Below, in pieces: positions 11,550-41,057 of a stretch of 64,000 nt of DNA. The stretch comes from Nocardioides aquaticus (GTDB taxonomy: Bacteria; Actinomycetota; Actinomycetes; Propionibacteriales; Nocardioidaceae), in contig NZ_CP075371.1 in assembly GCF_018459925.1 (NCBI RefSeq), positions 62,001 through 126,000 on the forward strand, given 5' to 3'. The notes under the pieces were generated by a model. It was given only the letters and a program-made list of their open reading frames with translations. It had not been told where the DNA came from and did not search any database. Within the stretch, counting starts at the first letter, position 1, and each line of letters opens with the position of its first letter. A program made the position numbers and the translations under genes.

Positions 11550-11655
11550 CGGAGCCGGAAGGAACGATGTCGACCCGGGGGTCGCGCTGACCGTGTCTTC
11601 GCAGGTCAGCCAGTTCGAGGCGACGGGTCAGCAGACTTCGTTCCTTCCGGCTACG
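11550..11655. repeat. Structured 106-nt intergenic repeat, copy 1
   Basis: The element is bounded by long inverted arms: 11553-11570 pairs with 11635-11652 with one mismatch in 18. An inner hairpin GCTGACC...GGTCAGC lies at 11586-11610. A second element of exactly the same length lies at 40952-41057. I counted 73 of 106 identical positions without gaps, with the arms, the CAGGTCAG box and the GCGACGGG box best conserved. It lies after the nitroreductase stop. Its 3' arm supplies the stop codon of the membrane-protein remnant. It may be a MITE-like element or a structured RNA. Confidence 0.8.
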
Positions 11656-11812
11656 ACCGCTGACCCACCTCCCAGCCGAGGCGGAGGCGGAGCCGGTGCG
11701 TGCGGGTGCGCTGGCGCAGTGTTTCCCACCAGATGACGGGCCCTGCTGCCAGCGTGACGACCGGCAGCAGGGTCAACAGCAACGGAACGTCCACACCGGC
11801 CGCGCCCGCCAA
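11651..11812 (-). pseudogene. C-terminal remnant of a third copy of the neighbouring membrane protein
   Basis: In the 54 codons before the TAG at 11651, the minus strand encodes LPVV....GP..WWE...R and ends RLRLRLG plus eight residues. This aligns without gaps to the last 31 residues of the adjacent gene at 11830, with 17 of 31 identical. There is no room for the rest of the gene, because the next stop codon lies 18 nt away. It is best read as what is left of a tandem paralogue after deletion. Its stop lies inside the arm of the repeat element. Confidence 0.65.
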
Positions 11813-11829
11813 CGACCGCGGCCGCCCGG

Positions 11830-12360
11830 TCAGCCGAGCCGCATCGCCAACCGGCGCAGGCGCTCGCGCCGGCGCACCGCCTCCCACCACGCCAGCGGTC
11901 CCACCACCACCACGACGACGGGCAGGAAGGCGGGGAAGCGCCAGGCGTCCCAGCCGGCGGCCCAAGCGATGGCGACGGGTATCCCGAGGGGGACGGCCAG
12001 CACCCACAGCCAGGGTGCCCCGGCGATCTCGGCCTCGGTCGAGCGGAGCTGGCGTGACGTCTCAGCCCGCCACCTCGCCTCGTCGCCGACCCCCTCGGGC
12101 GGGAGCTCGCCCTTGCGCACGGCGCGTCGGAAGGCCCAGACCCGGTCCAGCCTGCCCAGCCGGGCCGCGGTGGCGTCCTGACGCCGCCAGCCCAGGACGA
12201 CGGCGGCGCCGATCACCCCCACCATCGCCACGAACAGGGCAAGGGCGCCGAGGGTGCCGGAGGTGGCGTCGAAGGCAGCCCACAGCCAGGAGTAGACGGC
12301 GAGCGGGAGGAGGGGCGCCCCGATGAGGACCAGGCCGCGGACCGGCCCCGTGTCGCTCAT
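11830..12360 (-). CDS. Membrane protein of unknown function (paralogue pair, second gene)
   Basis: A 176-residue protein with four hydrophobic segments, two near residues 10-60 and two near 110-165, separated by a charged cytoplasmic loop (RRQDATAARLGRLDRVWAFRRAVRKGELPPEG). The C-terminal motif is GPLAWWEAVRRRERL. The ATG overlaps the upstream stop by one base (TGATG), so it is translated together with the gene at 12360-12923, which has the same overall layout. No named family is recognised. Confidence 0.7.
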   Translation of the reverse strand: MSDTGPVRGLVLIGAPLLPLAVYSWLWAAFDATSGTLGALALFVAMVGVIGAAVVLGWRRQDATAARLGRLDRVWAFRRAVRKGELPPEGVGDEARWRAETSRQLRSTEAEIAGAPWLWVLAVPLGIPVAIAWAAGWDAWRFPAFLPVVVVVVGPLAWWEAVRRRERLRRLAMRLG

Positions 12361-12923
12361 CAGCGCCCCAGCCGCTCGGCCAGCGCGTCGAGCCGGTCAC
12401 GGCGACGTCGCAGGTGGACGGCGAGGAACGGCCAGCCCAGGACGGTGACCGTCGCGACCGAGGCAGGCACAGAGGCGGCCTCGCCCCTTCCCGTGAGGAC
12501 CAGCACGACGACGGCGGCCACCAGGGCCAGCACCACGAGACCGACCCACGGCACCGCCAGGACGGCCTCGCGGGCTCGTAGCCGGAGCACCGGGAGGTGC
12601 AGACGCCACGCCCCGACCTCACCGTCCGGGTGCACCCGGGCCCCGGTCAGGGCCTGCTCGAAGAGATCGCGCTGGCCGGGACCGCCGTACGGGAGCTCCT
12701 CGCGCCGGCGGAGCCGCCGACCGACCAGGACCGCCGCTGCGACGACGAGGAGCAGCACGCCGTAGGCGACGAGCAGCTCCCTTCCCCACGGGACCTCGCC
12801 CCAGAGGGCGCCGGCGACGATGATCGCCCACCACGGCGCCCACGACCGCGCCATCCCGCGCACCCGACGGAGCACCGGGCCGGCCGGTGTCGCGGCGACG
12901 GGAGGGGCGGTGGTCGTGCTCAT
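12360..12923 (-). CDS. Membrane protein of unknown function (paralogue pair, first gene)
   Basis: A 187-residue protein with an N-terminal TTTAPP tail, two hydrophobic segments near residues 30-70, a charged loop (GRRLRRREELPYGGPGQRD) and two more segments near 125-165, ending in HLRRRRDRLDALAERLGR. The arrangement of two membrane pairs around a central loop matches the next gene, so the two probably arose by duplication and may form one complex. The start at 12923 (STTTAPP) is preferred to the longer frame because the upstream extension is Arg-rich and lacks a ribosome-binding site. Confidence 0.65.
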   Translation of the reverse strand: MSTTTAPPVAATPAGPVLRRVRGMARSWAPWWAIIVAGALWGEVPWGRELLVAYGVLLLVVAAAVLVGRRLRRREELPYGGPGQRDLFEQALTGARVHPDGEVGAWRLHLPVLRLRAREAVLAVPWVGLVVLALVAAVVVLVLTGRGEAASVPASVATVTVLGWPFLAVHLRRRRDRLDALAERLGR

Positions 12924-13018
12924 GACGGCATCATCCGACGCCCGCACCCGTCTGTCACGCACTTCCTGCACGCCCGCGCTCGCCTTTCCGGTTGCCGCCC
13001 GGCTGGCAGGATCGGAGC

Positions 13019-13501
13019 ATGACCTCCCTCCACGACCACCACGCGACCGCGATCGACGGGGGGGACGTCGACCTGGGGACGTACTCCGGTCAGGTCGTCC
13101 TCGTCGTCAACACGGCCTCGCAGTGCGGCTTCACGCCCCAGTACGAGGGCCTCCAGGACCTGCAGAAGTCCTACGCCGACCAGGGCTTCAGCGTGCTCGG
13201 TTTCCCGTGCAACCAGTTCCAGTCCCAGGAGCCGGGCGACGACGCCTCGATCGCGGGGTTCTGCGAGCGCAGCTTCGGCGTCACGTTCCCGATGTTCAGC
13301 AAGGTCGACGTCAACGGCGACCAGGCGCACCCGCTCTTCCGCTGGCTCCGCGAGGAGAAGGGCGGCCTGCTGGGCGACAAGATCAAGTGGAACTTCACCA
13401 AGTTCCTCGTCGGCAAGGACGGCCAGGTCATCAAGCGGTACGCGCCGACGACCAAGCCGGAGAAGATCACCGGCGACATCGAGAAGGCGCTGGCCTCGTG
13501 A
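13019..13501 (+). CDS. Glutathione peroxidase family (thioredoxin-type peroxidase)
   Basis: A 160-residue protein with the catalytic triad of the family: Cys in NTASQCGFT (residue ~39), Gln in GFPCNQF (~73) and Trp in WNFTKFLV. The second cysteine in FPCNQF suits the two-Cys thioredoxin-dependent mechanism. Actinobacteria lack glutathione, so the electron donor is probably thioredoxin or a mycothiol system (inference). It reduces hydrogen or lipid peroxides in the cytoplasm. The start is supported by CAGGAT 6 nt upstream. The next gene overlaps its stop (GTGA). Confidence 0.93.
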   Translation: MTSLHDHHATAIDGGDVDLGTYSGQVVLVVNTASQCGFTPQYEGLQDLQKSYADQGFSVLGFPCNQFQSQEPGDDASIAGFCERSFGVTFPMFSKVDVNGDQAHPLFRWLREEKGGLLGDKIKWNFTKFLVGKDGQVIKRYAPTTKPEKITGDIEKALAS

Positions 13502-14007
13502 GCGGCTTCACCGCGACCACCACCGCCGAGGCGATCGTCCTGGCGACCCGGGAGCAGATCTGGGAGGTCCTGCGCGACGCCGACGAGGTCGCCCGGCTGA
13601 CCCCGTTCGTCACCCGGATCGAGGACCGTGGCGAGCACTGGATCTGGTCGATGACCAAGCTGCCCGTGCCCAAGGCCACCCTCTCGCCGACCTTCACCGA
13701 GAAGATGGAGTTCGTCGAGCTCGAGCGGATCGAGTTCAAGCACGACGCCCCCGAGGGCTCGGACGAGAACGCCTGCGTCGACGGGTGGTACGAGCTGGAG
13801 GAGCTCGAGCCGCTGGAGGGCGAGCCGGCCGCCACGATGCTGCGCACGTCGCTGTCGATCACCCTCGACCTGCCGCTGCCCAAGGCGCTCGGGCCGGCGG
13901 TGAAGGCGTCGATGAAGACGGTCATCAACCAGATGGGCGACCGGTTCTCGGCGGGCATGCTGGAGACGCTCGGCACGACGACGCGGGGGAAGCCCACACG
14001 CTCGTGA
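13498..14007 (+). CDS. SRPBCC-fold (START/polyketide cyclase-like) protein
   Basis: A 169-residue protein that appears to belong to the SRPBCC superfamily of small-ligand pockets: ATREQIWEVLRDADEVARL is the typical N-terminal helix-loop, and a long C-terminal helix (AVKASMKTVINQMGDRF) closes the cavity. Its GTG overlaps the glutathione peroxidase stop, so it is cotranslated with the peroxidase. The ligand is unknown; the pairing hints at a lipid or membrane-related role but does not show it. Confidence 0.75.
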   Translation: MSGFTATTTAEAIVLATREQIWEVLRDADEVARLTPFVTRIEDRGEHWIWSMTKLPVPKATLSPTFTEKMEFVELERIEFKHDAPEGSDENACVDGWYELEELEPLEGEPAATMLRTSLSITLDLPLPKALGPAVKASMKTVINQMGDRFSAGMLETLGTTTRGKPTRS

Positions 14008-14044
14008 CTTGCCGGTAACCCGACCCGGGCGGGAGTCTGACCCC

Positions 14045-15445
14045 GTGCCCAAGATCGCGACCACGTCCTCGTACTCCATCACCATGCGGCTCCACACCGA
14101 GCCCGACCACTCCGTGATCGGCTCGGTGGCCACGGCGATCGCCGCGGAGGGCGGGATCGTCATGGCCGTCGACGTCGCGGAGTCGGCCAACGACCGCCTC
14201 GTCATCGACGTCACCTGCTCCGCGATCGACGCCGACCACGCCGCGCAGCTGCGCGAGAAGGTCGACGCGGTCGACGGCGTGACGGTGCACAAGGTCAGCG
14301 ACCGGACCTTCCTGCTCCACATCGGCGGCAAGATCGAGGTCACCTCGAAGGTCCCGCTGCGCAACCGCGACGACCTGTCGATGGCCTACACCCCGGGCGT
14401 GGGGCGGGTCAGCAAGGCGCTGGCCGACAACCCCGGCGACGTCTCGCGGCTGACGGTCAAGGGCAACTCGGTCGCGGTCGTCACCGACGGCTCGGCCGTG
14501 CTCGGCCTCGGAAACATCGGCCCGGGTGCCGCGCTGCCGGTGATGGAGGGCAAGGCGGCGCTGTTCAAGCGGTTCGCCGGCATCGACGCCTGGCCGATCT
14601 GCCTGGCCTCCCAGGACACCGACGAGATCGTGCGGGCCGTCGAGATGATCGCCCCCGGCTTCGGTGGCATCAACCTGGAGGACATCGCCGCCCCCCGGTG
14701 CTTCGAGATCGAGGCGCGGCTGCGCGAGAGCCTGGACATCCCGGTCTTCCACGACGACCAGCACGGCACCGCGATCGTCGTGCTCGCGGCGCTCACCAAC
14801 GCGCTGCGCGTGGTCGGCAAGAAGCTCGAGGACCTGCGGATCGTGGTCTCCGGTGCGGGTGCCGCCGGCACCGCCATCGTGACCCTGCTGCTCGCCGCCG
14901 GCGTGACGGACGTCGTGGTCTGGGACCGCGAGGGCTGCCTGTCCGGCGACGACGAGTCGCTGCCCGCCGCGAAGCTCAAGCTGGCCAAGGTGACCAACCC
15001 GCGCAAGGTCCGCGGCGACCTGCACACCGGCGTGACCGGCGCGGACGTCTTCATCGGCGTGAGCGCCCCGAACGTCCTCGACGCCGAGTGGATCAAGGAC
15101 ATGAACGAGAAGGCCATCGTCTTCGCCCTGGCCAACCCCGACCCGGAGGTCGAGCCCGGTGACGCCGGGGAGTACGCCGCGGTGGTCGCCAGCGGGCGGT
15201 CGGACTACCCCAACCAGATCAACAACGTGCTGGCGTTCCCGGGTGTCTTCCGCGGGCTGCTCGACGCCCGCGCCACCGACGTGACGATCGAGATGATGCT
15301 GCGGGCCGCCGACGCCATCGCCCACGTGGTCAAGGACGAGGAGCTCAACCCCACGTTCATCATCCCGTCGGTCTTCAACTCCGAGGTGCCCAAGGCGGTC
15401 GCGCGCGCGATCGCCGGGAAGCACGCCACCCTCGGCGACGACTGA
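14045..15445 (+). CDS. NAD-dependent malic enzyme with N-terminal ACT domain
   Basis: A 466-residue enzyme that decarboxylates malate to pyruvate with NAD(P)+. The first ~75 residues form an ACT-like regulatory domain (SITMRLHTEPDHSVIGSVAT). The malic enzyme core follows, with the catalytic Tyr in MAYTPGVGRVSKAL, the lysine region MEGKAALFKRF, metal ligands in INLEDIAAPRCFEIE and FHDDQHGTA, and an NAD site with GAGAAG. I chose the GTG at 14045; the region upstream lacks coding character and GAGTCT-N6-GTG gives a weak leaderless box. The ACT domain suggests allosteric control by a small molecule. Confidence 0.93.
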   Translation: MPKIATTSSYSITMRLHTEPDHSVIGSVATAIAAEGGIVMAVDVAESANDRLVIDVTCSAIDADHAAQLREKVDAVDGVTVHKVSDRTFLLHIGGKIEVTSKVPLRNRDDLSMAYTPGVGRVSKALADNPGDVSRLTVKGNSVAVVTDGSAVLGLGNIGPGAALPVMEGKAALFKRFAGIDAWPICLASQDTDEIVRAVEMIAPGFGGINLEDIAAPRCFEIEARLRESLDIPVFHDDQHGTAIVVLAALTNALRVVGKKLEDLRIVVSGAGAAGTAIVTLLLAAGVTDVVVWDREGCLSGDDESLPAAKLKLAKVTNPRKVRGDLHTGVTGADVFIGVSAPNVLDAEWIKDMNEKAIVFALANPDPEVEPGDAGEYAAVVASGRSDYPNQINNVLAFPGVFRGLLDARATDVTIEMMLRAADAIAHVVKDEELNPTFIIPSVFNSEVPKAVARAIAGKHATLGDD

Positions 15446-15453
15446 ACGGCGAC

Positions 15454-15478
15454 TTGACAGTCACCTAGGTATTGTCAA
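15454..15478. promoter_or_regulatory. Operator 1 of the alk operon (TTGACA-N13-TGTCAA)
   Basis: A 25-bp imperfect palindrome with perfect 6-bp ends, TTGACA-N13-TGTCAA, with CCTAGG at its centre. An equal-length site starts exactly 30 bp downstream. Two sites so placed before the AlkB gene, whose operon ends in a TetR gene, are the likely autoregulatory operator; TetR-type control of alkane hydroxylase operons (for example AlkX in Dietzia) is known. Binding here is inferred. Confidence 0.72.
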
Positions 15479-15483
15479 GTGCG

Positions 15484-15508
15484 TTGACAATCGGTACCTT
15501 TCTGTCAA
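15484..15508. promoter_or_regulatory. Operator 2 of the alk operon (TTGACA-N13-TGTCAA)
   Basis: The second 25-bp site has the same TTGACA and TGTCAA ends, the same 13-nt spacer and a central GGTACC. It begins 30 bp (about three helical turns) after operator 1, so repressors could sit on the same face of the DNA. The TTGACA half may also serve as a -35 element. The start codon of alkB lies 39 bp further on. Confidence 0.72.
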
Positions 15509-15547
15509 CCCGGCGCGCTCCCGCGCCGGCGACAGGAGGGACTCCTC

Positions 15548-17044
15548 GTGAGCGCACGGACCACCACCGGCAGCAGCCCCGGCGCCGGCAGCACCGTCCC
15601 CGCCGGATCGACCGACGGGTGGCACGACCACAAGCGGACCCTGTGGCTGATCGGGCTGGTCGTGCCCTCGCTGGCGTTCGTCGCGTACGGCGGGTGGCTG
15701 GCCACCGGGTCCGGCCTGTGGTTCTGGGTCGGCCCGGTCGTGATCCTGGTGATCGTCCCGGCCGTCGACCTGGTCGCGGGCCTCGACCGCGCCAACCCGC
15801 CCGACGACGTGATCGAGGCGCTCGAGCAGGACCGCTACTACCGCTGGGTGACCTACCTGTTCCTGCCGGTGCAGTACGCCGGGTTCGTCGGGGCCGCCTA
15901 CCTGGTCGCCCGCGGCGACCCGCTGGGCGTCGGCGGTGACCTGACCCTGGTCGAGCAGCTGGGCCTGGCGGCCACCATCGGCTGCATCGGCGGGATCGGG
16001 ATCAACACCGCCCACGAGCTCGGCCACAAGCGGGAGGCCAACGAGCGCTGGCTCTCCAAGATCGCCCTGGCCCAGAGCTTCTACGGCCACTTCTACATCG
16101 AGCACAACCGCGGCCACCACGTCCGCGTCGCGACGCCCGAGGACCCGGCGAGCAGCCGGATCGGGGAGTCGTTCTACGCCTTCTGGCCGCGCACCGTGCT
16201 CGGCTCGGTGCGCTCGGCCTGGCGCCTGGAGGAGAAGCGGTACGCCCGCCGCGACCAGCACCCGTACCGGCCCGGCAACGACGTCCTGAACGCGTGGGTC
16301 ATGTCGGCGGTGCTGTGGGGCGCCCTCGCGGTCTGGCTCGGCCCGGTCGTCCTGCCCTTCCTGGTCGTCCAGGCGCTGATCGGCCTCACCCTGCTCGAGG
16401 TCGTCAACTACATGGAGCACTACGGCATGCGCCGGCAGAAGGTCGGCGTCGGACACCGCGAGCGCTACGAGCGGGTCGACCCGTCGCACTCCTGGAACTC
16501 CAACAACGTGGCGACCAACGTGCTGCTCTACCACCTGCAGCGCCACAGCGACCACCACGCCAACCCCACCCGGCGCTACCAGACGCTGCGCGACTTCGAG
16601 GAGTCGCCGGTGCTGCCGACGGGGTACGCCGGGATGATCCTGATCGCGCTCGTGCCGCCGCTGTGGCGCCGGGTGATGGACCCCCGGGTGGTCGCCCACT
16701 TCGACGGCGACGTCACCCGCGCCAACGTCCACCCGCCGCGCCGCACGCGGGTGCTCGCCGCGTGGCCCGCCCCGGCTGCGGCCGACCAGCCGGCCGCGGC
16801 CGACCAGCCGATCGAGGACGCCGCCGCCCCTGCCGCTGCCGCCACAGCCGTCGTCCCCGCGGACGAGGTGCTGGCTGCGCGCTGCCCCGGCTGCGGCTAC
16901 ACCTACGAGGTCGAGGTCGGCAACGAGCTGGAGGGCTTCGCGGCCGGCACCTCCTGGGCCGACGTCCCCGACGCGTGGTGCTGCCCGGACTGCGGGGTCC
17001 GCGAGAAGGTCGACTTCGTCCCGATGACCGGGAGCGACGCCTGA
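15548..17044 (+). CDS. alkB: Alkane 1-monooxygenase AlkB with fused C-terminal rubredoxin
   Basis: A 498-residue membrane diiron enzyme that hydroxylates the terminal carbon of n-alkanes. It has about six membrane helices and the AlkB histidine boxes HELGH (~156), EHNRGHH (~184), HSDHH (~334), plus NYMEHYG. After an Ala/Pro-rich linker (residues ~400-440), a rubredoxin domain follows with CPGCGY (~445) and CCPDCG (~479) to bind one iron and pass electrons directly. AlkB-rubredoxin fusions are known in Nocardioides, Dietzia and relatives. The GTG start has AGGAGGG 7 nt upstream. Two 25-bp operators precede it. It is coupled to the ferredoxin gene (TGATG). Confidence 0.97.
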   Translation: MSARTTTGSSPGAGSTVPAGSTDGWHDHKRTLWLIGLVVPSLAFVAYGGWLATGSGLWFWVGPVVILVIVPAVDLVAGLDRANPPDDVIEALEQDRYYRWVTYLFLPVQYAGFVGAAYLVARGDPLGVGGDLTLVEQLGLAATIGCIGGIGINTAHELGHKREANERWLSKIALAQSFYGHFYIEHNRGHHVRVATPEDPASSRIGESFYAFWPRTVLGSVRSAWRLEEKRYARRDQHPYRPGNDVLNAWVMSAVLWGALAVWLGPVVLPFLVVQALIGLTLLEVVNYMEHYGMRRQKVGVGHRERYERVDPSHSWNSNNVATNVLLYHLQRHSDHHANPTRRYQTLRDFEESPVLPTGYAGMILIALVPPLWRRVMDPRVVAHFDGDVTRANVHPPRRTRVLAAWPAPAAADQPAAADQPIEDAAAPAAAATAVVPADEVLAARCPGCGYTYEVEVGNELEGFAAGTSWADVPDAWCCPDCGVREKVDFVPMTGSDA

Positions 17045-17232
17045 TGCGGGTCGTGGCGGACCGCGACACCTGCGAGGGTCTCGGCATGTGCGAGGCGATG
17101 AGCGAGCTGTTCGAGGTCGGCGACGACGGCTCCGTCGTGGTCCACGACGAGCAGCCCCCCGAGGCCGCCCGGGCCGACGTGCAGGCCGCGGTGGACGCCT
17201 GCCCGGTCCTGGCCCTGCGGCTCGAGGGCTGA
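17044..17232 (+). CDS. Small 3Fe-4S ferredoxin
   Basis: A 62-residue ferredoxin with the cysteine pattern C-x5-C (DTCEGLGMCEAM) and a later Cys-Pro (DACPVLAL). This is the three-ligand pattern of 3Fe-4S ferredoxins that usually serve cytochromes P450 in actinobacteria. It starts one base inside the alkB stop (TGATG) and is followed 3 bp later by the reductase gene. Its presence beside an AlkB that already carries a rubredoxin is unexpected. It may link the reductase to the rubredoxin or serve another oxygenase. Confidence 0.9.
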   Translation: MRVVADRDTCEGLGMCEAMSELFEVGDDGSVVVHDEQPPEAARADVQAAVDACPVLALRLEG

Positions 17233-17235
17233 GGC

Positions 17236-18471
17236 GTGCGCGCGGGCGGACGCCTGGTCGTGGTCGGTGCCGGACTGGCCGGGTTCAGGGCGGTCGAGAC
17301 CGCCCGCCGCGAGGGTCACGCGGGCGAGCTGGTGCTCCTCGGGGCCGAGGAGCGGGCGCCGTACGACCGGCCGCCGCTGAGCAAGGCGGCGCTCGCCCCC
17401 GGTGCCACCGAGCCCGTCCCCTTCCGCACCGCGGAGGAGCTGGAGGACGACCTCGGGATCGACCTGCGGCTGGGGGAGGAGGCGACCGGTCTCGACACCG
17501 CCGCCCGTGAGGTGGTCCTGGGCGGCGAGCGACTGGCCTACGACGCCCTGGTCGTCGCCACCGGCGCCCGCCCGCGGGCCGTCCCCGGCGACCACCTGGC
17601 GGGCGTGACCCACCTCCGCACGGCCGACGACGCCGCGGTCGTCCGGCGGGCGCTGGACGCCGGCGCGCGCACCGTCGTCGTCGGCGCCGGGTTCATCGGC
17701 TCCGAGGTCGCCTCCGCCGCCCGCGCCCGCGGGCTCGAGGTGACCGTGGTCGAGGCGGCCGACGTGCCGCTGCAGCGGTCGCTCGGGCCCGAGGTCGGCA
17801 GGCTCGTCACCCGGCTGCACCGCGACGCGGGCGTCGACCTGCGCCTGGGCTCGGGCGTCACCGGGCTCACCGAGGTCGCCGGCCACGTGACGGGGCTCGC
17901 CCTGGAGGACGGCACCGAGCTGGCCGCCGACCTGGTGGTGCTCGGCGTCGGCGTGGCCCCGTCGACCGGCTGGCTCGAGGGCAGCGGCGTCGACCTGCAC
18001 CCCCGCGACCGCGGCGTCGTCTGCGACGACACCCTGGCCACCAACGCCCCCGGGGTGTGGGCCGCGGGGGACGTCGTGCACGCGCCCCACCCGCTGCTCG
18101 GCGGGGACCTGCTGCGGGTCGAGCACTGGACCAGCGCCGCCGAGCAGGGTGCAGCGGCCGCGCGCCACGCGCTCGACCCGTCGTCCGCGCAGCCGTTCGC
18201 CCCCGTGCCGTACGTCTGGTCCGACCTCTTCGGCCACCGCCTCCAGCTCGTCGGCACCTCCGTGGCCGACGGGGTGGTGGTCCTCGACGCCGACGACGGC
18301 GGCGTCGCCGGGACGACGGCGCTCTGGCACCGGGGCGGGCAGGTGGTCGGGGCGCTGGTCGTCGACCGTCCGCGGGTGGTGATGAAGCTGCGTCGCCGGA
18401 TCGCCGACGGCGGGCCGTTCGACGAGGCGCTGCACGCTGCCCGGGAGCTGCTCGGGCGCGCCGGGACCTAA
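17236..18471 (+). CDS. FAD-dependent ferredoxin/rubredoxin reductase
   Basis: A 411-residue two-dinucleotide-fold flavoprotein. Residues ~7-12 hold the FAD motif (GAGLAG), RPPLSK is the family hallmark, the NAD-binding GAGFIGSE lies near residue 154, and the second FAD motif is VWAAGDV. It passes electrons from NAD(P)H to ferredoxin or rubredoxin and on to AlkB. It starts 3 bp after the ferredoxin stop. The size and domains are those of the P450-type ferredoxin reductases and rubredoxin reductases. Confidence 0.93.
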   Translation: MRAGGRLVVVGAGLAGFRAVETARREGHAGELVLLGAEERAPYDRPPLSKAALAPGATEPVPFRTAEELEDDLGIDLRLGEEATGLDTAAREVVLGGERLAYDALVVATGARPRAVPGDHLAGVTHLRTADDAAVVRRALDAGARTVVVGAGFIGSEVASAARARGLEVTVVEAADVPLQRSLGPEVGRLVTRLHRDAGVDLRLGSGVTGLTEVAGHVTGLALEDGTELAADLVVLGVGVAPSTGWLEGSGVDLHPRDRGVVCDDTLATNAPGVWAAGDVVHAPHPLLGGDLLRVEHWTSAAEQGAAAARHALDPSSAQPFAPVPYVWSDLFGHRLQLVGTSVADGVVVLDADDGGVAGTTALWHRGGQVVGALVVDRPRVVMKLRRRIADGGPFDEALHAARELLGRAGT

Positions 18472-18481
18472 AGTGGGGCCG

Positions 18482-19068: not shown

Positions 19069-19096
19069 GCCGGAGGGGCCGTCCGCCGCGCGCGGG

Positions 19097-19678: not shown

Positions 19679-19740
19679 GAGGTGTCTCCTCGGCCCGGGA
19701 GGGCCAGGTCAGGGCCCGGCCGAGCACGTGGTCCGCGGGA

Positions 19741-26280: not shown

Positions 26281-26285
26281 TGGGC

Positions 26286-31392: not shown

Positions 31393-31393
31393 G

Positions 31394-32665: not shown

Positions 32666-32675
32666 GGTCGGGCCC

Positions 32676-33524: not shown

Positions 33525-33586
33525 GACCCGCGTCACATGCCGTCCCGGTCCCTGGATCTCGACGCGGCGGGGAGGGCAGGTCGGGT

Positions 33587-33592
33587 TATGGT
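33587..33592 (+). promoter_or_regulatory. Likely -10 box (TATGGT) of the GntR-family gene
   Basis: TATGGT lies 28 bp before the ATG at 33621. A transcript starting near 33600 would have a short leader that includes GGAG at 33612. The same spacing rule of about 7 nt to the transcription start is seen in leaderless genes of this window. Confidence 0.5.
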
Positions 33593-33620
33593 CGTGCCCG
33601 ATTCAAGGACCGGAGACCAG

Positions 33621-34412
33621 ATGCCCCAAGGCGTGACCGCGCGTGCTGCCGCAGACCTGCTCGACCTGATCCTCGACCAGACCTTCCCCCCGGGCGCGTC
33701 CCTGCCGTCCGAGACCGAGCTCGCCGAGCGTCTCGGCGTCAGCCGCCTGACCGTCCGCGAGGCGATCAAGTCGCTCGCCGGGACCCGGGTGATCGTGGTG
33801 CGGCAGGGCCGCTCCAGCATGGTGAACGAGGTCGAGGAGTGGTCGCCGTTGGAGCCGCGGCTGTTCGCCGCCCGGGTGGCCCGGGGCAGCGACTCCCTGC
33901 CCGCGCAGATCCTCGAGGTGCGGCGCATCGTCGAGGTGGAGGCGCTGCCGCTGGCCGTCGAGCGGTGCACCGACACGCAGCGTGAGGTCCTCGCCGACGC
34001 GCTGAGGTGGATGCGGGAGGCCCACGCCGCCGACGACCCGACCACCTTCGCGGAGAACGCCCTGCGGTTCCGGTCCGGGCTGATCGCCGCCGCCGGGAAC
34101 GTCTACCTCGAGGCGCTCCTCGCTCCGCTCACCGACATCGTGATGCCCGCGGCGCACGAGGCCCACGCGGACCCCGGCCTGCGGCAGCGGGTGCTCGACG
34201 TGCACGGCGAGCTGCTCGCGGCCGTCGAGGCGGGGGACGTGCCCCGGGCGCGTGCGGTGCTGACGGGCCACTTCGAGAAGCAGCGGGCCGACCCGATGTG
34301 GCTGCGCACCCGTCAGATCAGCAGACCGACCAGCAGCACCAGCGCCACGACGCCGAGCACCAGCGCGAGCAGCAACGGCACGGCGACGAGCAGCAGCGCC
34401 GACGCGACGTAG
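33621..34412 (+). CDS. GntR-family (FadR subfamily) transcriptional regulator
   Basis: A 263-residue protein with winged helix (LPSETELAERLGVSRLTVRE, residues ~30-50) and an FCD ligand domain with metal/ligand residues (EVRRIVEVEAL, HGELLAAVE). Such proteins control carbon-source or fatty-acid genes, binding small acids. The ATG at 33621 has GGAG 5 nt upstream. The normal domain ends near HFEKQRADPMW; the frame then runs another ~35 Ser/Thr-rich residues into the 3' end of the opposing DUF4112 gene, a 100-bp tail-to-tail overlap. The target is unknown. Confidence 0.88.
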   Translation: MPQGVTARAAADLLDLILDQTFPPGASLPSETELAERLGVSRLTVREAIKSLAGTRVIVVRQGRSSMVNEVEEWSPLEPRLFAARVARGSDSLPAQILEVRRIVEVEALPLAVERCTDTQREVLADALRWMREAHAADDPTTFAENALRFRSGLIAAAGNVYLEALLAPLTDIVMPAAHEAHADPGLRQRVLDVHGELLAAVEAGDVPRARAVLTGHFEKQRADPMWLRTRQISRPTSSTSATTPSTSASSNGTATSSSADAT

Positions 34413-34792
34413 CCGACCGTCGGCGCCGGGACCGGCGCGCCGACCGGCCGGTCCGCCAGTGCCCGCTCCATCAGCCTGATGTTCTTGCGGTTGGCCCGGT
34501 GGGCGACGTCCGCGGCATCGCCCACCAGCGGCACCACCCCGAGCAGGGCGTCGACCACGAGGTTGCCGCCCATCCGCGCGAGCACCGGCACCGGGACGTG
34601 GCACCGCACCGCGTCGTAGAGCACCACCCCGGAGATCGCGGAGCCGGCGAGGTCCCCGACGCCGGGGACCAGGCCGATCACGGCGTCCAGGCCGAGGCCG
34701 ACCTGGGTCCCGGGCACCCGGATCGCGTCGTCCATCACGCGGGCGAGGACCCGGCTGCGGCGGGGGACGGGGGTCCCGGTCTGCTCGTCCAT
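34313..34792 (-). CDS. DUF4112 membrane protein
   Basis: A 159-residue protein with the DUF4112 core (GLGLDAVIGLVPGVGDLAGS, GVVPLVGDAADVAHRAN) and a very hydrophobic C-terminal helix pair (LLLVAVPLLLALVLGVVALV). The function is unknown. I chose the ATG at 34792; the longer frame is antisense of the next promoter. Its 3' end overlaps the GntR gene by 100 bp on the other strand. Confidence 0.85.
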   Translation of the reverse strand: MDEQTGTPVPRRSRVLARVMDDAIRVPGTQVGLGLDAVIGLVPGVGDLAGSAISGVVLYDAVRCHVPVPVLARMGGNLVVDALLGVVPLVGDAADVAHRANRKNIRLMERALADRPVGAPVPAPTVGYVASALLLVAVPLLLALVLGVVALVLLVGLLI

Positions 34793-34833
34793 GCCCCGAT
34801 CCTCCCGGACGGCTGCGCGGGCCCGGTCGTCTC

Positions 34834-34839
34834 CTAGGG
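34834..34839 (+). promoter_or_regulatory. Likely -10 box (TAGGGT) of the lipoprotein gene
   Basis: TAGGGT lies 34 bp before the ATG at 34874. A transcript starting near 34846 would carry the strong GGAGGAA site at 34861-34867. Confidence 0.5.
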
Positions 34840-34873
34840 TGAGGCCTCCGCACCGACCCTCGGAGGAACCTCC

Positions 34874-35803
34874 ATGCGACTGCGTCCCCAGCACCGTCCG
34901 CGTCCCCTGGCCGCCGTCGCCGTCGCGGCGGTGACCGCGGCGGCCCTCGCCGGCTGCTCCGGCGGGGAGGAGGAGTCGCCGGAGGACGAGACGTCCGGGT
35001 CCCCGTCGGCGTCGTCCTCGGAGTCGGCGGAGCCCTCCGCGTCATCGGAACCGTCGGAGCCGGCCGACGGTGAGGCGGCCGCCCAGGCCCTCCAGGACGC
35101 CGTCGACGCCACGATCGCGGCGCGGGTCTTCACGATCGACGGCGACCTCGACCTCGAGATCGCCGGTCAGCAGCTGGAGCTGCAGACCGAGGGCAGCGTC
35201 GACTACGACGCGACCGTCGCGGACCTGCGGCTCGCGATCGGCCAGGGCGGCCAGACCAGCGAGGCCGAGGTGAAGGCCGACGGTGAGACGCTCTGGGTGC
35301 GCGCCGAGGGCCAGGGTGTCCCCGCCTTCCCCGGCGGCGCGACCTGGCTGCAGGGCGAGGCCACCCGCCTGGCCGAGTCCACCACCTTCACCCCGACCGG
35401 TCTCGTCGGAGCGGTCCTCGTGCTGCGCGGCGCGTCCGAGGTCGAGGAGGTCGGCACCGAGGAGGAGGACGGCGTCGAGGTCACCCGCTACGCCACCACC
35501 TTCACCTACGACGACGCCCTGGCGGCCGTCGACGGCCAGGAGGCCCAGGTGCTCGGCAGCGCCTTCTCCCTGACCGGCGCGGCGTCCTCGATCGACCTCG
35601 ACGTCGAGGTCGCGGTGGGCGACGACGGCGTGCTGCGGGAGTTCGACCTGGAGCTCGCCGAGTCCGACGTCGCGGCCGCGGGCAGCTACGAGATCAGCCT
35701 GAGCGACGTCGCCGGCGAGGTCACGCCGCCCGCGCCGCCGGCCCCCTCCGACGTGGCCACGGGTCCCGAGGCCGAGGCGCTGCTCGACCAGGTCATCGTC
35801 TGA
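34874..35803 (+). CDS. LppX/LprAFG-family lipoprotein
   Basis: A 309-residue exported lipoprotein: signal peptide with lipobox LAGC (Cys ~28), then a Ser/Glu/Pro-rich linker (~30-65) and a beta-rich domain typical of LppX/LprG proteins (TIAARVFTIDGDLDLEI, ADLRLAI, VGAVLVLRGASEVEEV). In mycobacteria these carry lipids across the cell wall. The ribosome-binding site GGAGGAA lies 6 nt before the ATG. No linked exporter is seen. Confidence 0.8.
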   Translation: MRLRPQHRPRPLAAVAVAAVTAAALAGCSGGEEESPEDETSGSPSASSSESAEPSASSEPSEPADGEAAAQALQDAVDATIAARVFTIDGDLDLEIAGQQLELQTEGSVDYDATVADLRLAIGQGGQTSEAEVKADGETLWVRAEGQGVPAFPGGATWLQGEATRLAESTTFTPTGLVGAVLVLRGASEVEEVGTEEEDGVEVTRYATTFTYDDALAAVDGQEAQVLGSAFSLTGAASSIDLDVEVAVGDDGVLREFDLELAESDVAAAGSYEISLSDVAGEVTPPAPPAPSDVATGPEAEALLDQVIV

Positions 35804-35864
35804 CGCGCCCGGTGTCGGCGGCCGCGGCTAGCGTGGGACAGGTGCGGTCGACGAGGGGGTGCCT

Positions 35865-38738
35865 GTGGGTTTCGTCCCGCTGACCGGGCCGGCCGAGCTC
35901 GCCGAGGCCGCACCCGGCGCACGCCCCGGCGAGGCCGTGGTGGCGTTCACCGCCGCCGACGGGGGCCGACGGGTCGAGCTGCCGGTGCGCGCCGCCCTGC
36001 CGGTGCTCACCAAGGCCCACGCCCGCGACGACGTGCACCCCAGCGTCGGTCTCCTGGCCGGCGCGGCGCTGCTGGCGCTGCGCCTCGTGGCGGCCGGTCG
36101 GCTGGCGCCGGACGCGGTCGGCGACGGCTGGCGGATCGCCCCGCTGCCGGCCGAGGACGACGACCGGGTCGCGCAGCTGGCCCTGGCCCGCTCCCACGAC
36201 GGTCTCGCGCCCGACCAGGCCGAGGCCGTCGTGCGCCGGGTGCTGGACGCCGTGGCCGACACGATGCCGCGCACCGCCTCCCGCCCGCCCCGGGCCCGGC
36301 CGGCCGAGCGCGTCGCGCCCGGTGACTTCGCGGAGCGGCTGGCTGCCCGGCTCGACCGGCTGCGCGCACCCGCCCCGACAGGGCAGGTCGACCGGACGCC
36401 GCCGGCGCGGCGGGCCGAGGACGACGACCGGCCGCAGCTGGTCCGCCTCGCGCTCCGGGTCGAGGCCGACGAGGAGGACCTGTCGGCCGGCTCGGTGCGG
36501 CTCGTGCTCCAGGTCCACGACGAGCTGGACCCGCTGCACCTCTGCGAGGCCGTGGACCTCTGGGCGGACCCCGACGCGACCGACGGGGCGGGTCACGGGT
36601 TCGGCGTCCGGGCCCGCACCCACGCCGCCATCGCGCTGCGCGCGGCGGCCGAGGCGTGGCCGGTGCTCGACCGGATGCTCGACGGGCCCACGCCTGCGGA
36701 GCTGACCCTCAGCGGCGAGGACCTCGCGAGCCTGCTGGAGGACGGGGTCGCCGCGCTCGGCGCCCGGGGCGTCGACGTGCTGTGGCCCCGCAGCCTCGGC
36801 CGGGACCTGACCGCGACCAGCGTGCTCGACCGGGTCGACCCCCGCCACCCGCAGGACCGGGGTCCGGCGACCGGGCCGGGGCCGCACGAGGAGCCGCTCC
36901 AGGACCCGCTCCTCGGTCCCGACTCGGTCTTCGCCTTCCGCTGGCAGCTCGCGCTGCACGGCGAGGACCTGACCGCGGCCGAGATGGACGCGCTGGCCGA
37001 CGCCGCCTCACCGCTGCTGAGGCTGCGCGGTGGCTGGACGGTCGTCGACCCCGCCACCGCGCGCAAGGCCCGCAAGCGGCTGCAGCGCACCGTGGCCCCC
37101 ACCCGCGCGATCGCCGCCGCGCTGACCGGCACCGTGCCGGTCGAGCCGGGCACCGGCCTGCCCCCCGACACCCCGGTCGTGGTGGGCGCGTCGCTGCTGA
37201 AGGTGCGCGAGCAGCTGGTCGGCGCGGCCACGACGGAGCCGGTGCCCCCGCCGCCGGGGCTCCGGGCGGAGCTGCGGGACTACCAGCGGCACGGCCTGAC
37301 CTGGCTGGCCACGCTGACCGGCCTCGGCCTCGGCGGCTGCCTGGCCGACGACATGGGACTGGGCAAGACCGTCACCCTCGTCGCGCTGCACCTGCACCGG
37401 ACCTCCCGCGGCGCCACCGGGCCGACCCTCGTCGTCTGCCCGGCCAGCCTGCTCGGCAACTGGGAGGCCGAGATCCGCCGCTTCGCCCCCGGGGTGCGGG
37501 TCCGGCGCTTCCACGGCGGGGAGCGGACGCACGAGGACCTCGCCCCCGACGCGACGGGTGCGACCGGGCCGGGCGCCGACACCCGGGGCTTCGTGCTGAC
37601 CACCTACGGCACCATGCGCCGCGACGCCGAGCGCCTCGGCACCACCGCCTGGGACCTGGTGGTCGCCGACGAGGCCCAGCACGTCAAGAACGCCCGGTCC
37701 TCGACGGCCCGGGCGCTGCGCACCATCGACAGCGCCGCCCGGGTCGCCCTGACCGGGACCCCCGTCGAGAACGACCTCACCGAGCTGTGGGCGATCCTCG
37801 ACTGGACCGTGCCGGGCCTCCTGGGCAGCCGCAACGCCTTCCGCAAGGTGTGGGCGGCCCCCATCGAGTCCGGCCTCGAGCCGACCAAGGCACGCCAGTT
37901 CGCCGACCTGATCGGACCGTTCCTGCTGCGGCGTCGCAAGTCCGACCCCGGCATCGCCCCCGAGCTGCCGGCCAAGACCGAGACCGACCACCTGCTGCGC
38001 CTGACCCGGGAGCAGGTCGTGCTCTACGAGGCCTTCTGCCGCGACACCCTGGCCCGCATCGAGCGCGCCGACGAGGACGCGCGCCGCGGCCTCGTGCTGG
38101 CCCTGCTGACCGGGTGCAAGCAGATCTGCAACCACCCGGCGCAGTTCCTGAAGCAGTCCGGGGGGCGGTTGCGCGGCCGGTCCGAGAAGCTGGACCTGCT
38201 CGAGGAGCTGCTCACCACGGTCGTCGCCGAGGGCGGCGCGGTGCTCGTCTTCACGCAGTACGTCGCGATGGCCCGCCTCGTCGAGCAGCACCTCACCGCC
38301 GTCGGCGTGCCGCACCAGCTGCTCCACGGGGGCACCCCGGTCCCGCAGCGCGAGGCCATGGTCGCGTCCTTCCAGGCCGGGGAGGTCCCGGTCTTCCTGC
38401 TCTCCCTCAAGGCCGGTGGCACCGGCCTCAACCTGGTCCGCGCCGACCACGTCGTCCACCTCGACCGGTGGTGGAACCCGGCCGTCGAGGACCAGGCGAC
38501 CGACCGTGCCCACCGGATCGGGCAGACCAGGCCCGTCCAGGTGCACCGCCTGGTCGCCCAGGGCACCATCGAGGAGCGGATCGGGCAGCTCCTGGCCCGC
38601 AAGCGGTCGCTGGCCGACGCGGTCCTGGGGCGCGGGGAGGCGGCGCTGACCGAGCTCAGCGACGCCGAGCTGCACGACCTCGTCCGCCTGCGGCAGCCCG
38701 ACGGACCGGACGGGCCGGACGGGCCGGACGGGCCGTGA
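35865..38738 (+). CDS. SNF2-family DEAD/DEAH helicase (HepA-like)
   Basis: A 957-residue bacterial SNF2 ATPase. The first ~470 residues hold the bacterial SNF2-associated region (DUF3670-like), then Walker A DDMGLGKTV, DEAQHVKN, the Snf2 motif ALTGTPVENDLTELW, and the helicase C half ending in DRAHRIGQTRPVQVHRL. The C-terminus is four repeats of Gly-Pro-Asp coded by a 9-bp tandem repeat (38700-38735). The GTG at 35865 has GAGGGG 6 nt upstream and is preferred to the GTG at 35859. The next gene encodes a SWIM zinc-finger protein, a usual bacterial partner. It probably remodels protein-DNA or RNA polymerase complexes. Confidence 0.93.
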   Translation: MGFVPLTGPAELAEAAPGARPGEAVVAFTAADGGRRVELPVRAALPVLTKAHARDDVHPSVGLLAGAALLALRLVAAGRLAPDAVGDGWRIAPLPAEDDDRVAQLALARSHDGLAPDQAEAVVRRVLDAVADTMPRTASRPPRARPAERVAPGDFAERLAARLDRLRAPAPTGQVDRTPPARRAEDDDRPQLVRLALRVEADEEDLSAGSVRLVLQVHDELDPLHLCEAVDLWADPDATDGAGHGFGVRARTHAAIALRAAAEAWPVLDRMLDGPTPAELTLSGEDLASLLEDGVAALGARGVDVLWPRSLGRDLTATSVLDRVDPRHPQDRGPATGPGPHEEPLQDPLLGPDSVFAFRWQLALHGEDLTAAEMDALADAASPLLRLRGGWTVVDPATARKARKRLQRTVAPTRAIAAALTGTVPVEPGTGLPPDTPVVVGASLLKVREQLVGAATTEPVPPPPGLRAELRDYQRHGLTWLATLTGLGLGGCLADDMGLGKTVTLVALHLHRTSRGATGPTLVVCPASLLGNWEAEIRRFAPGVRVRRFHGGERTHEDLAPDATGATGPGADTRGFVLTTYGTMRRDAERLGTTAWDLVVADEAQHVKNARSSTARALRTIDSAARVALTGTPVENDLTELWAILDWTVPGLLGSRNAFRKVWAAPIESGLEPTKARQFADLIGPFLLRRRKSDPGIAPELPAKTETDHLLRLTREQVVLYEAFCRDTLARIERADEDARRGLVLALLTGCKQICNHPAQFLKQSGGRLRGRSEKLDLLEELLTTVVAEGGAVLVFTQYVAMARLVEQHLTAVGVPHQLLHGGTPVPQREAMVASFQAGEVPVFLLSLKAGGTGLNLVRADHVVHLDRWWNPAVEDQATDRAHRIGQTRPVQVHRLVAQGTIEERIGQLLARKRSLADAVLGRGEAALTELSDAELHDLVRLRQPDGPDGPDGPDGP

Positions 38739-39442
38739 GCGCCGTGGCCCACCCGCGGGTCCCGGCCCGGCGCGGTCGCGCGTGGGCGGGGCGGTGGTGG
38801 GCGAAGGCGTGGCTGCGGGCGGTGGAGGAGGTGGCCTACGACGAGGGCGACCTGCGCCGCGCCCGCTCCCTGGCCCGGAGCGGCGCCGTGGGGGCGGTCC
38901 GGGTCGACGCCGGCAGCCTGCGCTCGGCGGTCACCGAGCAGCGCCGCGGTGCCGAGGAGCTGTGGGGCGTGGAGGTCGCGCTGCCCGTCCTCGACCCCTC
39001 CGCGGTCGCGGCGCTCGTGGAGGCGGTGGCCGCGGACCCCGCCCGGGTGGCCGCGCTGCTGGCCGGCGAGCTGCCGCACGACCTGGTCGAGCACGCCGAG
39101 GAGGCCGGGGTCGAGCTCGTGCCGTACGGGACGGAGCTGGCGGCCTCGTGCACCTGCGCGTCCTGGGTCGACCCGTGCCCGCACGCGCTGGCCCTGCTGC
39201 TCCAGGTCGGCTGGCTGGTGGAGGACGACCCGCTGGTGCTGCTCCAGCTGCGCGGGCTGCCCCGCGAGGACCTCCTCGCCGCGCTGCACCACCGCCGCGA
39301 CCCGCAACCCGGGCCGGGGCCCGGCCGCGACGACGCCGAGGAGGTCCTCGAGACCGCGGAGGACGCCGCGCGCCGTGCCGCGCGGATCCTGGACCTGCTC
39401 GGGCACGACCACGACCCGGCCGAGCTGGACCGGCTCTGGTGA
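38735..39442 (+). CDS. SWIM zinc-finger protein
   Basis: A 235-residue protein with a SWIM motif CTCASWVDPCPHALAL (CxC...CxH, ~residues 139-154), which binds zinc and DNA or protein. An N-terminal basic, Trp-rich segment (GRWWAKAWLRAVEE) is typical of the bacterial partners of SNF2 helicases. Its GTG overlaps the helicase stop, so they are made together and probably act as a complex. Confidence 0.9.
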   Translation: MSAVAHPRVPARRGRAWAGRWWAKAWLRAVEEVAYDEGDLRRARSLARSGAVGAVRVDAGSLRSAVTEQRRGAEELWGVEVALPVLDPSAVAALVEAVAADPARVAALLAGELPHDLVEHAEEAGVELVPYGTELAASCTCASWVDPCPHALALLLQVGWLVEDDPLVLLQLRGLPREDLLAALHHRRDPQPGPGPGRDDAEEVLETAEDAARRAARILDLLGHDHDPAELDRLW

Positions 39443-39519
39443 CCCACCCGGCCCGACAGGTGGGGCCTGGTCTGGCACCCTGAGGCCGCCGCACCACCCG
39501 CCCGTACCGAGGAGACCCG

Positions 39520-40326
39520 ATGAGCGACGTCCTGCGCGTGGAGCGCGACCGCACCCCGCACGTCGAGACCTGGACGCTGGACCTGCCCGACCAGCGCAAC
39601 CCGATCTCGGGGCCCGACGTGGTCGCGGCCCTCGTCGAGAACCTGGAGCGCGTCGACGCCGACACCGACGTGCGCTGCGTGGTCCTCACCGGTGCGGGAT
39701 CGGCGTTCTCCGCCGGCGGCAACGTGCGCGACATGGAGGAGCGCCGCGGCATGTTCGGCGGGACCCCCTGGGAGCTGCGCAACGGCTACCGGCACGGGAT
39801 CCAGCAGATCCCGGCGGCGATGGCCCGCTGCGAGACCCCGTTCGTCGCCGCGGTCAACGGGCCGGCCGTCGGCGCCGGGTGCGACCTGACCCTGATGTGC
39901 GACCTGCGGGTGGCCTCCAGCCGCGCGTGGTTCGCCGAGTCCTTTGTCCAGCTCGGCATCATCCCCGGAGACGGGGGCGCCTGGCTGCTGACCCAGGCCG
40001 TCGGACCCGCCCGGGCCGCCGAGATGGCCCTGACCGGGGACCGGGTCGACGCCGCCACCGCGCTGGACTGGGGCCTGGTCTCGCAGGTCGTCGAGCCCGA
40101 CGACCTGCTCGACGCCGCCCACGCGCTGGCCGCCCGGGTCGCGAAGAACCCGCCGCACGCGACCCGGATGGCCAAGAAGCTGCTCAAGGCCTCCCAGCAC
40201 CAGGGCCAGGCCGCGGTGCTGGAGCTGTCCGCGGCCATGCAGGCCCTCGCGCACCACACCGCCGACCACGCCGAGGCACTGGCAGCGCTGCGCGAGAAGC
40301 GCGCCGGCGACTACCAGGGCTCCTAG
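39520..40326 (+). CDS. Enoyl-CoA hydratase/isomerase (crotonase) family protein
   Basis: A 268-residue crotonase with the oxyanion-hole segments FSAGGNVRDM and GPAVGAGCDLTLMCDLR, and the second acid region ESFVQLGIIPGDGG, where Asp replaces the usual Glu of dehydratases and suggests an isomerase or other CoA chemistry. The ATG has GAGGAG about 8 nt upstream. It acts on acyl-CoA in the cytoplasm. It is near, but not in, the leucine-degradation genes at 43.5-48 kb. Confidence 0.88.
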   Translation: MSDVLRVERDRTPHVETWTLDLPDQRNPISGPDVVAALVENLERVDADTDVRCVVLTGAGSAFSAGGNVRDMEERRGMFGGTPWELRNGYRHGIQQIPAAMARCETPFVAAVNGPAVGAGCDLTLMCDLRVASSRAWFAESFVQLGIIPGDGGAWLLTQAVGPARAAEMALTGDRVDAATALDWGLVSQVVEPDDLLDAAHALAARVAKNPPHATRMAKKLLKASQHQGQAAVLELSAAMQALAHHTADHAEALAALREKRAGDYQGS

Positions 40327-40328
40327 CC

Positions 40329-40913
40329 GTGCGCACCCCGCGCGAGGTGCTCGACCGGGTCGCGCTCTGGAGGATCGACCCCACCTCGCTGGTCCGGCCG
40401 GACGAGCAGACGACCGTGCGGCGGATCGAGGTCGTCCGGGGCACCTGGGGCCTGGTGATGCTCGCCGGCCCGACGCCGCTGCTGCGCGCGATCTCGATCG
40501 ACGACGACCCCGTCATGATCTGGACCGGGCGGGTGCTGGGCACGCGCCACCTGACCCAGGCCGTGCTGTCCGGGGCGCGGCCGAGTCCCGAGGGCCTGGC
40601 GATGGGCGTCTGGGTGGACGCGGTGCACGCGCTGTGCGCGCTCGGGCTCGCGGCGTCGTCCCGCCGCCGCGCGGCGGCCGGGATCTTCGACGCGGTCGCG
40701 GCGACCGGCTGGGCGGTCGCGGGCTACCGCGACCTGGTCAACCCCCGCGCCGCCCTGCCCACCCACACCGGACGCCGCGACGCGCTGGCCCGCCGCTTCC
40801 TGCGGGCGCTGCCCGGCGGCGCGCCCCTGGCCGACCGCGTGGAGCAGGACCGCGAGCGGCTGCCGACCGCCGAGCGGGGCGGCACGGACGACGCCCGGGG
40901 CGACGTGTCGTAG
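40329..40913 (+). CDS. Conserved hypothetical protein
   Basis: A 194-residue protein with a hydrophobic segment (GTWGLVMLAGPTPLLRAI) near residue 40 and two later ones (VDAVHALCALGLAAS, AGIFDAVAATGWAVAGY). It starts 2 bp after the crotonase stop and is probably cotranslated. No family is recognised. The C-terminus is charged and probably disordered. Confidence 0.65.
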   Translation: MRTPREVLDRVALWRIDPTSLVRPDEQTTVRRIEVVRGTWGLVMLAGPTPLLRAISIDDDPVMIWTGRVLGTRHLTQAVLSGARPSPEGLAMGVWVDAVHALCALGLAASSRRRAAAGIFDAVAATGWAVAGYRDLVNPRAALPTHTGRRDALARRFLRALPGGAPLADRVEQDRERLPTAERGGTDDARGDVS

Positions 40914-40951
40914 CCGCGCAACGGCGCCCGTACGGCAGGCCCCGCCGCCGG

Positions 40952-41057
40952 CGTAGTCGGAAGGAAGGAAGTCGGCGCGGCCGTGGCCGGTGACCTGGAT
41001 CCACAGGTCAGCGCGGTGCGGGCGACGGGACGAGGTACTTCGTTCCTTCCCGCTACG
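40952..41057. repeat. Structured 106-nt intergenic repeat, copy 2
   Basis: Arms 40952-40972 and 41037-41057 pair with three mismatches over 21 bp. An inner hairpin TGACCTG-gatcca-CAGGTCA at 40991-41010 keeps the structure of copy 1 (11550-11655) although its loop and many bases differ. It sits between the hypothetical protein gene and a convergent TetR gene, thus in the same kind of 3' location as copy 1. Confidence 0.8.

Follow-up and report, generated by a model that had tools for sequence, protein, structure and literature searches.

Among dispersed populations of bacterial palindromes, only REPIN/RAYT is, to our knowledge, both well studied and upheld by a dedicated single-gene enzyme. 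Among other systems with which short palindromes may be compared, integron attC sites are bounded by RYYYAAC ... GTTRRRY, and EDxHD nucleases carry a motif of conserved residues that is used for comparison here. Excerpts of Di Nocera et al. 2013 (PMC3733652) describe the GTAG/CGTC-tagged REPs as palindromes of 20-40 bp with tetranucleotide tags, the CGTC class apparently lacking a dedicated transposase, and excerpts of PMC7319586 describe AbiEi as binding inverted repeats in its own promoter. Here we analyse a window of 64,000 bp, comprising bases 62001-126000 of the 4.58-Mb single-contig genome of Nocardioides aquaticus, which holds two 106-bp repeats, a1 and a2. These repeats belong to a family of short DNA palindromes scattered among soil actinobacteria, a real, widespread and length-stepped two-arm family that is tied to a gene of AbiEi-EDxHD type in 31 of 48 tested loci. 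On balance, we favour the view that a1 and a2 come from a family of two-arm DNA sites belonging to this dedicated nuclease gene. The link to the gene was not foreseen by an earlier interpretation of the window from its letters alone (hereafter the sequence-only reading).

A length-stepped family of two-arm elements

Within the N. aquaticus genome, a 21-base arm pattern with up to three mismatches matches 15 arms, and a looser pattern gives 17 matches, of which 16 form eight pairs of fixed spacing and one is a lone half. This pairing, together with the absence of any match to a reversed control pattern in the same genome, shows that the arm family did not arise by chance. The eight copies with window-type arms align nearly without gaps over 107 columns and share a layout of 22-bp inverted arms, CG ends, a CAGGTCA core and filler in between. 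Pairwise identity among these eight copies is 85-87% in the arms and 64% in the central block of 24 bases, reaching 93% in its CAGGTCAGC part. The filler shows 33-34% identity against 32.6% expected from composition, and thus has drifted to chance level while the length has not.

Covariance-model searches of related genomes, as proposed in the sequence-only reading, recovered further copies, and our catalogue now holds 107 distinct elements from 83 fetched sources (identical copies counted once), 12 of them in N. aquaticus. Two models were used, R1 built from ten copies and R2 from 24 copies of several subfamilies, both with search filters that lose weak matches. R1 members occur in 10 of 215 Nocardioides genomes and R2 members in 26 of 341 genomes of the family, namely 23 Nocardioides and three of a second genus. 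A strict-pattern scan of the genome collection returned 36 loci, two of them from Nocardioides sp. AX2bis; four of the other 34 were inspected and 30 judged by title alone. Among the four is L049, from a metagenome-assembled genome of Polyangiaceae, with a 99-bp stretch (4180-4278) whose 19-bp terminal inverted repeat, AGTCTTGGAAGGAAAGATC, is like the window arms. Plasmid and phage records, queried with the a2 region only, gave a 6% coding match to a Deinococcus plasmid and none in phages.

The subfamilies differ in their arms, with types such as GGAAGGAACGAAG, GGACAGGCACAAG, GGACCGGAACAAC, AGGACCGAAC and AAGAACGTACACAAG, and the two arms change together between subfamilies. Indeed, in 24 aligned copies from several subfamilies 86.6% of arm cells are paired, 18 of 22 pairs are altered on both sides, and the arm covariation score is 0.489, compared with 0.185 in shuffles and at most 0.107 in slid controls. 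Elements of different subfamilies can lie close together, 16 bp apart in L140 (1813-1935 and 1952-2052) and 33 bp apart in L176 (1166-1273 and 1307-1409). One genome, G194 (L126-L134, L143, L177), carries tandem element arrays, in places alternating with same-arm palindromes of 40-50 bp.

The 107 lengths fall into clusters of 86-89 bp (34 elements), 97-99 bp (13), 105-110 bp (50) and 116-118 bp (3), and the seven off-cluster lengths are 93, 100, 101, 103 (three) and 123 bp, five of them from AX2bis. The best-fitting period is ~10 bp, with an R of 0.62 on 56 genome-by-length entries (jittered null 0.17; 0/2000), and the lengths in one pair of AX2bis elements are exactly 20 bp apart, with 10 bp of the difference on either side of the core. 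Such steps of about a helical turn suggest that the elements act as duplex DNA in which the arms and the core face the same side of the helix. CG stands at both ends of 103 of the 107 elements, in place of the attC boundaries, and an integron attC site was rejected on this ground. AGGTCA is present in 46 of the 57 elements of at least 102 bp, and a TGA, TAG or TAA triplet occupies positions 48-50 of the minus orientation in 37 of the 48 elements of 105-108 bp; among the 34 elements of 86-89 bp, a stop triplet at 47-49 on either strand is found in only 10.

A gene for a predicted nuclease accompanies the elements

When 27 genomes were scanned with the arm pattern, several contained pairs of elements ~1 kb apart, and each of five translated intervals between paired elements holds one gene of ~280-300 codons. 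Three of the products match DUF559 just over the cut-off and MTES_1575 under it, one also matching AbiEi_4 under the cut-off, and relatives are named in databases as DUF559 proteins or very-short-patch-repair endonucleases. A search of PDB sequences with the partner-protein profile gave no match, whereas the comparison of folds did: the partner has an AbiEi-type fold by the criterion applied and, in its C-terminal part, an EDxHD/Vsr nuclease fold, in which the conserved E, D, H and D residues are invariant. The partner is a predicted, uncharacterised DNA-cutting enzyme. The nuclease gene that lies between two elements in L178 (G082) is an apparent pseudogene, being divided between two frames.

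Of 215 Nocardioides genomes, 142 contain the gene (E 1e-15), as do 104 of 394 class-level genomes at a looser E of 1e-10; it is present in each of the 23 Nocardioides genomes with R2 matches (p 3.7e-5). We tested 48 gene loci, being 30 returned by the search and 20 of our own choosing, minus two duplicates. Of these loci, 32 have a 3' element in which 16 or more of 20 arm positions pair, against 1.75% of random positions. This count divides into 20 of 30 search-returned and 12 of 18 author-chosen loci, and becomes 26 of 41 without the seven loci (six positive) that first revealed the link. With at least 17 pairs, a 3' element is present in 27 of 48 loci and a 5' element in 18 (5' random 3.25%), and in 18 of 48 the 5' element ends no more than 150 bp before the aligned start, often ~51-57 bp. 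The element spans the stop codon itself in 31 loci (null 9/600), and in 23 of these the distance from the start of the element to the end of the stop is exactly 49 bases. In the stop-spanning loci, the left arm and filler supply the final codons of the gene, whose stop lies near the centre of the element. The N. aquaticus gene (C1:4045473-4046363, minus strand) ends in this manner, its GCG-TGA-CCTGCGG lying within an element of 99 bp. In nine DUF559 paralogues that are more distant, such an element is lacking, the best candidate having 14 of 20 pairs. Outside Nocardioidaceae, a scan with a wider window and without its own null found a 3' inverted repeat of at least 16 of 20 pairs in 4 of 10 loci (L261, L264, L268 and L269, from three families).

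The elements also appear to vary in step with the gene, and the arms of a gene's element tend to recur elsewhere in its genome. Among 26 genes in genomes with catalogued elements, 22 carry their own element and 17 allowed a comparison with dispersed copies of the same genome; for these 17, the best arm identity averages 0.85 within the genome and 0.67 over other genomes, and 13 have a dispersed same-genome copy with an arm at least 83% identical. At L221, the boundary was placed 3 bp off and the gene's own element is possibly among the copies compared. The sole close gene found in N. aquaticus carries the AAGAACGTACACAAG arm type, with a dispersed copy at C1:519906-520008. Because this is not the arm type of a1 and a2 (subfamily a), the window copies are probably orphaned from their own enzyme.

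The same loci can be read differently, as an operator network, in which the protein is an AbiEi-type autoregulator with the 5' element as its operator, the 3' and dispersed elements serve as further regulatory sites or as decoys, and the nuclease half is of little importance or acts at other places. We regard this as possible but unlikely. The promoter binding described in the excerpts of PMC7319586, the 5' elements close to the start and some dispersed copies just upstream of frames (13 bp in L026, 25 bp in L024) would be expected of operators, and helical phasing suits cooperative binding and looping. However, the 3' element is the commoner of the two, both window copies lie between convergent frames, and the nuclease residues are invariant. 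Moreover, a local all-against-all comparison of the frames next to elements revealed no family common to most copies, the few shared families being those of L024, L117/L127 and L133, of L002 and L028, and of L001, L024 and L123.

Differences between sites in related genomes

Comparison of the eight subfamily-a sites of N. aquaticus with AX2bis shows two copies that are shared and one that is half deleted. Another AX2bis site lacks the element and has next to it an insert with inverted repeats at its ends, and two sites hold a different palindromic repeat, one of them adjoining an assembly gap. In the latter two (L080 and L081, orthologous to C1:73551 and C1:2999555), the repeat replacing the element reads GGGGAATCCCCGCCCG..., with a TTGCA-centred hairpin after or before it. 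A further site (L082/L083 compared with L028, C1:3700956) has a gene in place of the element, which we take to resemble DUF222/HNH (13E12-type), and the last codons of this gene persist next to the element in N. aquaticus. As judged from these alignments, the differences look like losses and replacements more than fresh insertions.

No consistent flank duplication was observed beyond CG, and direct repeats of 2-9 bp are not above shuffled pairing in the 35 of 47 copies used, with the arrays of G194 left out and a largest z of 2.2 over many offsets; a flush AGTGA repeat at copy a3 is a single case. The CG ends could be read either as a duplication or as part of the repeat. Interiors that are related to one another are seen in copies that are neighbours or orthologues.

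These features also bear on whether the elements are an ordinary miniature inverted-repeat transposable element (MITE) of an undetected transposase, the nuclease gene being merely carried along, which we hold to be improbable. A MITE would account for terminal inverted repeats, dispersed intergenic copies and patchy presence among relatives, but not for flanks without consistent duplication, nor for copies of one genome whose interiors are unrelated, at the chance identity given above for the filler, unlike the products of a MITE burst. In addition, many of the arm-pattern matches in the 27 genomes are short elements or pairs that bracket the nuclease gene, and the five intervals translated contained no transposase, only part of the matches having been inspected.

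Pairing and folding within the elements

The sequence-only reading took the structure kept in both copies as a sign of selection on an RNA or on folded DNA, and of these a DNA element is the better reading, an RNA being disfavoured. The window copies do fold better than dinucleotide shuffles (z -5.81 and -4.15, plus strand), and the inner hairpin that it described pairs at 7 of 7 positions in both; but the hairpin is not general, since it is fully paired in only two of eight N. aquaticus copies, the six others reaching 2-5 of 7 pairs in either register with wobble counted. No pair of the a1 hairpin register is altered on both sides. Rather, the constant interior feature is the sequence CAGGTCA. 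Variation that breaks the pairing, which the sequence-only reading had set down as a refutation, is present in the inner hairpin of six of the eight copies; in the arms, 2-5 of 23 positions are unpaired in the ten subfamily-a copies (two from AX2bis), yet the arms covary between subfamilies. The covariation of paired positions that it proposed as a check does not extend to subfamily a itself, in which the score of the ten copies is equalled or exceeded in 242 of 500 shuffles. Single arms have no obvious internal hairpin by eye.

A structured RNA or bidirectional terminator accordingly seems quite improbable to us. It would draw on the stable folds, the arm covariation between subfamilies and the frequent 3' position, as well as on the eight interiors, whose folding is slightly more stable than that of shuffles (mean z -1.0, combined z -2.9). 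These interiors have no shared shape, however, and neither the unkept inner hairpin nor lengths in ~10-bp steps are expected of an RNA. There is no clear G-U excess, with 32 G/T-type against 27 A/C-type of 191 mismatches in 50 oriented copies (83 against 57 of 376 arm mismatches in all 107 elements, many arbitrarily oriented). The window has no gathering-level Rfam match; a permissive Rfam search of 7 loci gave four sub-threshold miRNA matches, two of which overlap an element. A host function in which the AbiEi-EDxHD protein binds fixed chromosomal sites, be it for organisation, replication or recombination, would suit sites of fixed architecture spread over the chromosome and the arrays of G194 but is very hard to credit, given the patchy R2 matches (26 of 341 family genomes, with filters losing weak matches) and copies that differ between close relatives.

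Two further ideas about the interiors were rejected: the interiors are not guide-like, since their matches to the flanks beside them do not exceed chance (lowest permutation p 0.040 in 24 tests), and left and right interiors show no pairing with each other (p 0.66 and 0.53).

The two copies in the window

The positions and the 106-nt length that the sequence-only reading gave for the two copies are correct, its hand-counted identity of ~70% becomes 75% by BLAST, and the long arms pair as it described (Table 1). The intergenic setting, between plus- and minus-strand genes, is likewise confirmed by reading frames that converge on both copies.

Table 1. Element copies, their parts and flanking reading frames, in positions of the window
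Feature	Position	Strand	Remarks
Element copy a1, 106 bp, subfamily a arms	11550..11655	+	Flanked by convergent reading frames
a1 left arm, CGGAGCCGGAAGGAACGATGTC	11550..11571	+	20/22 Watson-Crick pairs with right arm
a1 core, CAGGTCAGC	11602..11610	+	Minus strand reads GC-TGA-CCTG; TGA = 11606-11608
a1 right arm	11634..11655	+	
Element copy a2, 106 bp, subfamily a arms	40952..41057	+	Flanked by convergent reading frames
a2 left arm, CGTAGTCGGAAGGAAGGAAGTC	40952..40973	+	18/22 Watson-Crick pairs
a2 core, CAGGTCAGC	41004..41012	+	
a2 right arm	41036..41057	+	
Flanking open reading frame, 260 aa	10755..11537	+	Stop 12 bp before a1; outside element
Flanking open reading frame, 192 aa	41090..41668	-	Converges on a2; outside element

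How a nuclease might maintain its sites

If the repeats are sites of the dedicated nuclease gene, we propose the following course of binding, cutting, arm conversion and selfish upkeep. The AbiEi-like half would bind both arms cooperatively on one face of bent DNA, in the way that AbiEi binds 23-bp inverted repeats, and the nuclease half would then cut at or near the element. Repair would copy arm sequence between copies, and occasionally a whole element, such that within a genome the arms would remain similar to one another and suited to the gene, with each copy retaining an interior of its own. The outcome would be a REPIN-like population of short palindromes upheld by one gene with an unrelated enzyme, of which the window copies (subfamily a) would be old members. 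We suggest that repair-driven arm rewriting with occasional spread accounts for the observations better than classical transposition. A narrower version, which we put forward only tentatively, is that the nuclease cuts two-arm sites and repair rewrites the arms alone and in place, so that sites change recognition together with the enzyme and keep their interiors. One orthologous pair of note here is C1:519765-519872 and AX2bis C8:574675-574774, which have the core and left interior in common and differ in both arms.

Several observations weigh against the nuclease-site reading. The arm match, scored without a permutation test, is not specific: the own genome is best or tied for 10 of the 17 genes, another genome being better for seven, and four genes (L209, L213, L225 and L229; 0.41-0.61) have no good arm match. 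For L213, the arm CTCCTGCGTAG resembles the AX2bis type GTCCTGCGTAG by eye, and the allowed shift was probably too small. The 23 of 23 association with the gene is partly physical linkage, as gene-linked copies count as matches, and 18 of the 48 tested loci were author-chosen, many from element-bearing genomes. Seventeen of the 48 have no stop-spanning element at the threshold used, and no gene with the subfamily a arm type was found in the N. aquaticus genome. As to rewriting and spread, the AX2bis versions of two loci are altered in the arms (at both loci), in the core (at one) and in the interior too, and no clean transposition event was found. The sole clean empty AX2bis site still has six element bases, GCTACG, and resembles a deletion. 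In G013, three near-identical 97-bp elements (L163, L164 and L165) share 35-50 bp of flank on each side, and the unit that spread, a repeat of ~190 bp, exceeds the element.

Comparison with known systems

In the open-licence literature, we found nothing on REPIN and RAYT in Actinobacteria, nor anything joining DUF559 with inverted repeats and transposition or AbiEi with DUF559. Titles and opening abstract lines on Nocardioides intergenic palindromic repeats included none of relevance, and the entries listed for DUF559 with palindromic sequences were unrelated. The GTAG/CGTC-tagged REPs are likewise palindromic repeats with tetranucleotide tags, but differ in their size of 20-40 bp, and the main text of PMC3733652 contains none of the terms Actinobacteria, Actinomycet- or Nocardioides. 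In contrast to the AbiE type IV toxin-antitoxin systems (AbiEi / Rv2827c), the AbiEi-like part is here fused to a nuclease-fold domain, and the repeats are dispersed and at the 3' end of the gene. With the EDxHD homing endonuclease I-Bth0305I and Vsr, the partner protein shares the C-terminal fold and its conserved acidic and histidine residues, but it differs from both in being associated with a family of palindromic elements. The loci read show free-standing frames beside elements and no intron or intein setting, introns not having been searched for.

The closest likeness is to REPIN/RAYT as described in excerpts of PMC3116915, with dispersed intergenic palindromes of two conserved inverted ends and a variable middle, a single gene beside its repeats, several subfamilies per genome, and, in many of the elements here, GTAG/GGAG-like ends. 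By its enzyme, a REPIN/RAYT system was rejected, since a search for Y1_Tnp (PF01797, the RAYT domain) in 215 genomes gave a match in one alone (G151), which is outside the R1 and R2 matches; the controls of this search were positive in 5 of 14, including E. coli. As no tested family fits, the elements and their gene look like a previously undescribed bacterial repeat system, although defined by function they could instead be counted among REPIN-like systems. If the nuclease-site reading is true, it would provide a biological setting for a family annotated only as DUF559 or very-short-patch-repair endonuclease, and a direct test of how palindrome populations keep gene and sites matched. In comparison with REPIN/RAYT, the partner is an AbiEi-EDxHD protein instead of a Y1 transposase, the lengths change in ~10-bp steps and the core of the element coincides with the stop codon of the gene, which would make this an independent case of the same kind, with an unrelated nuclease fold, a shared stop codon and a length fixed by helical turns.

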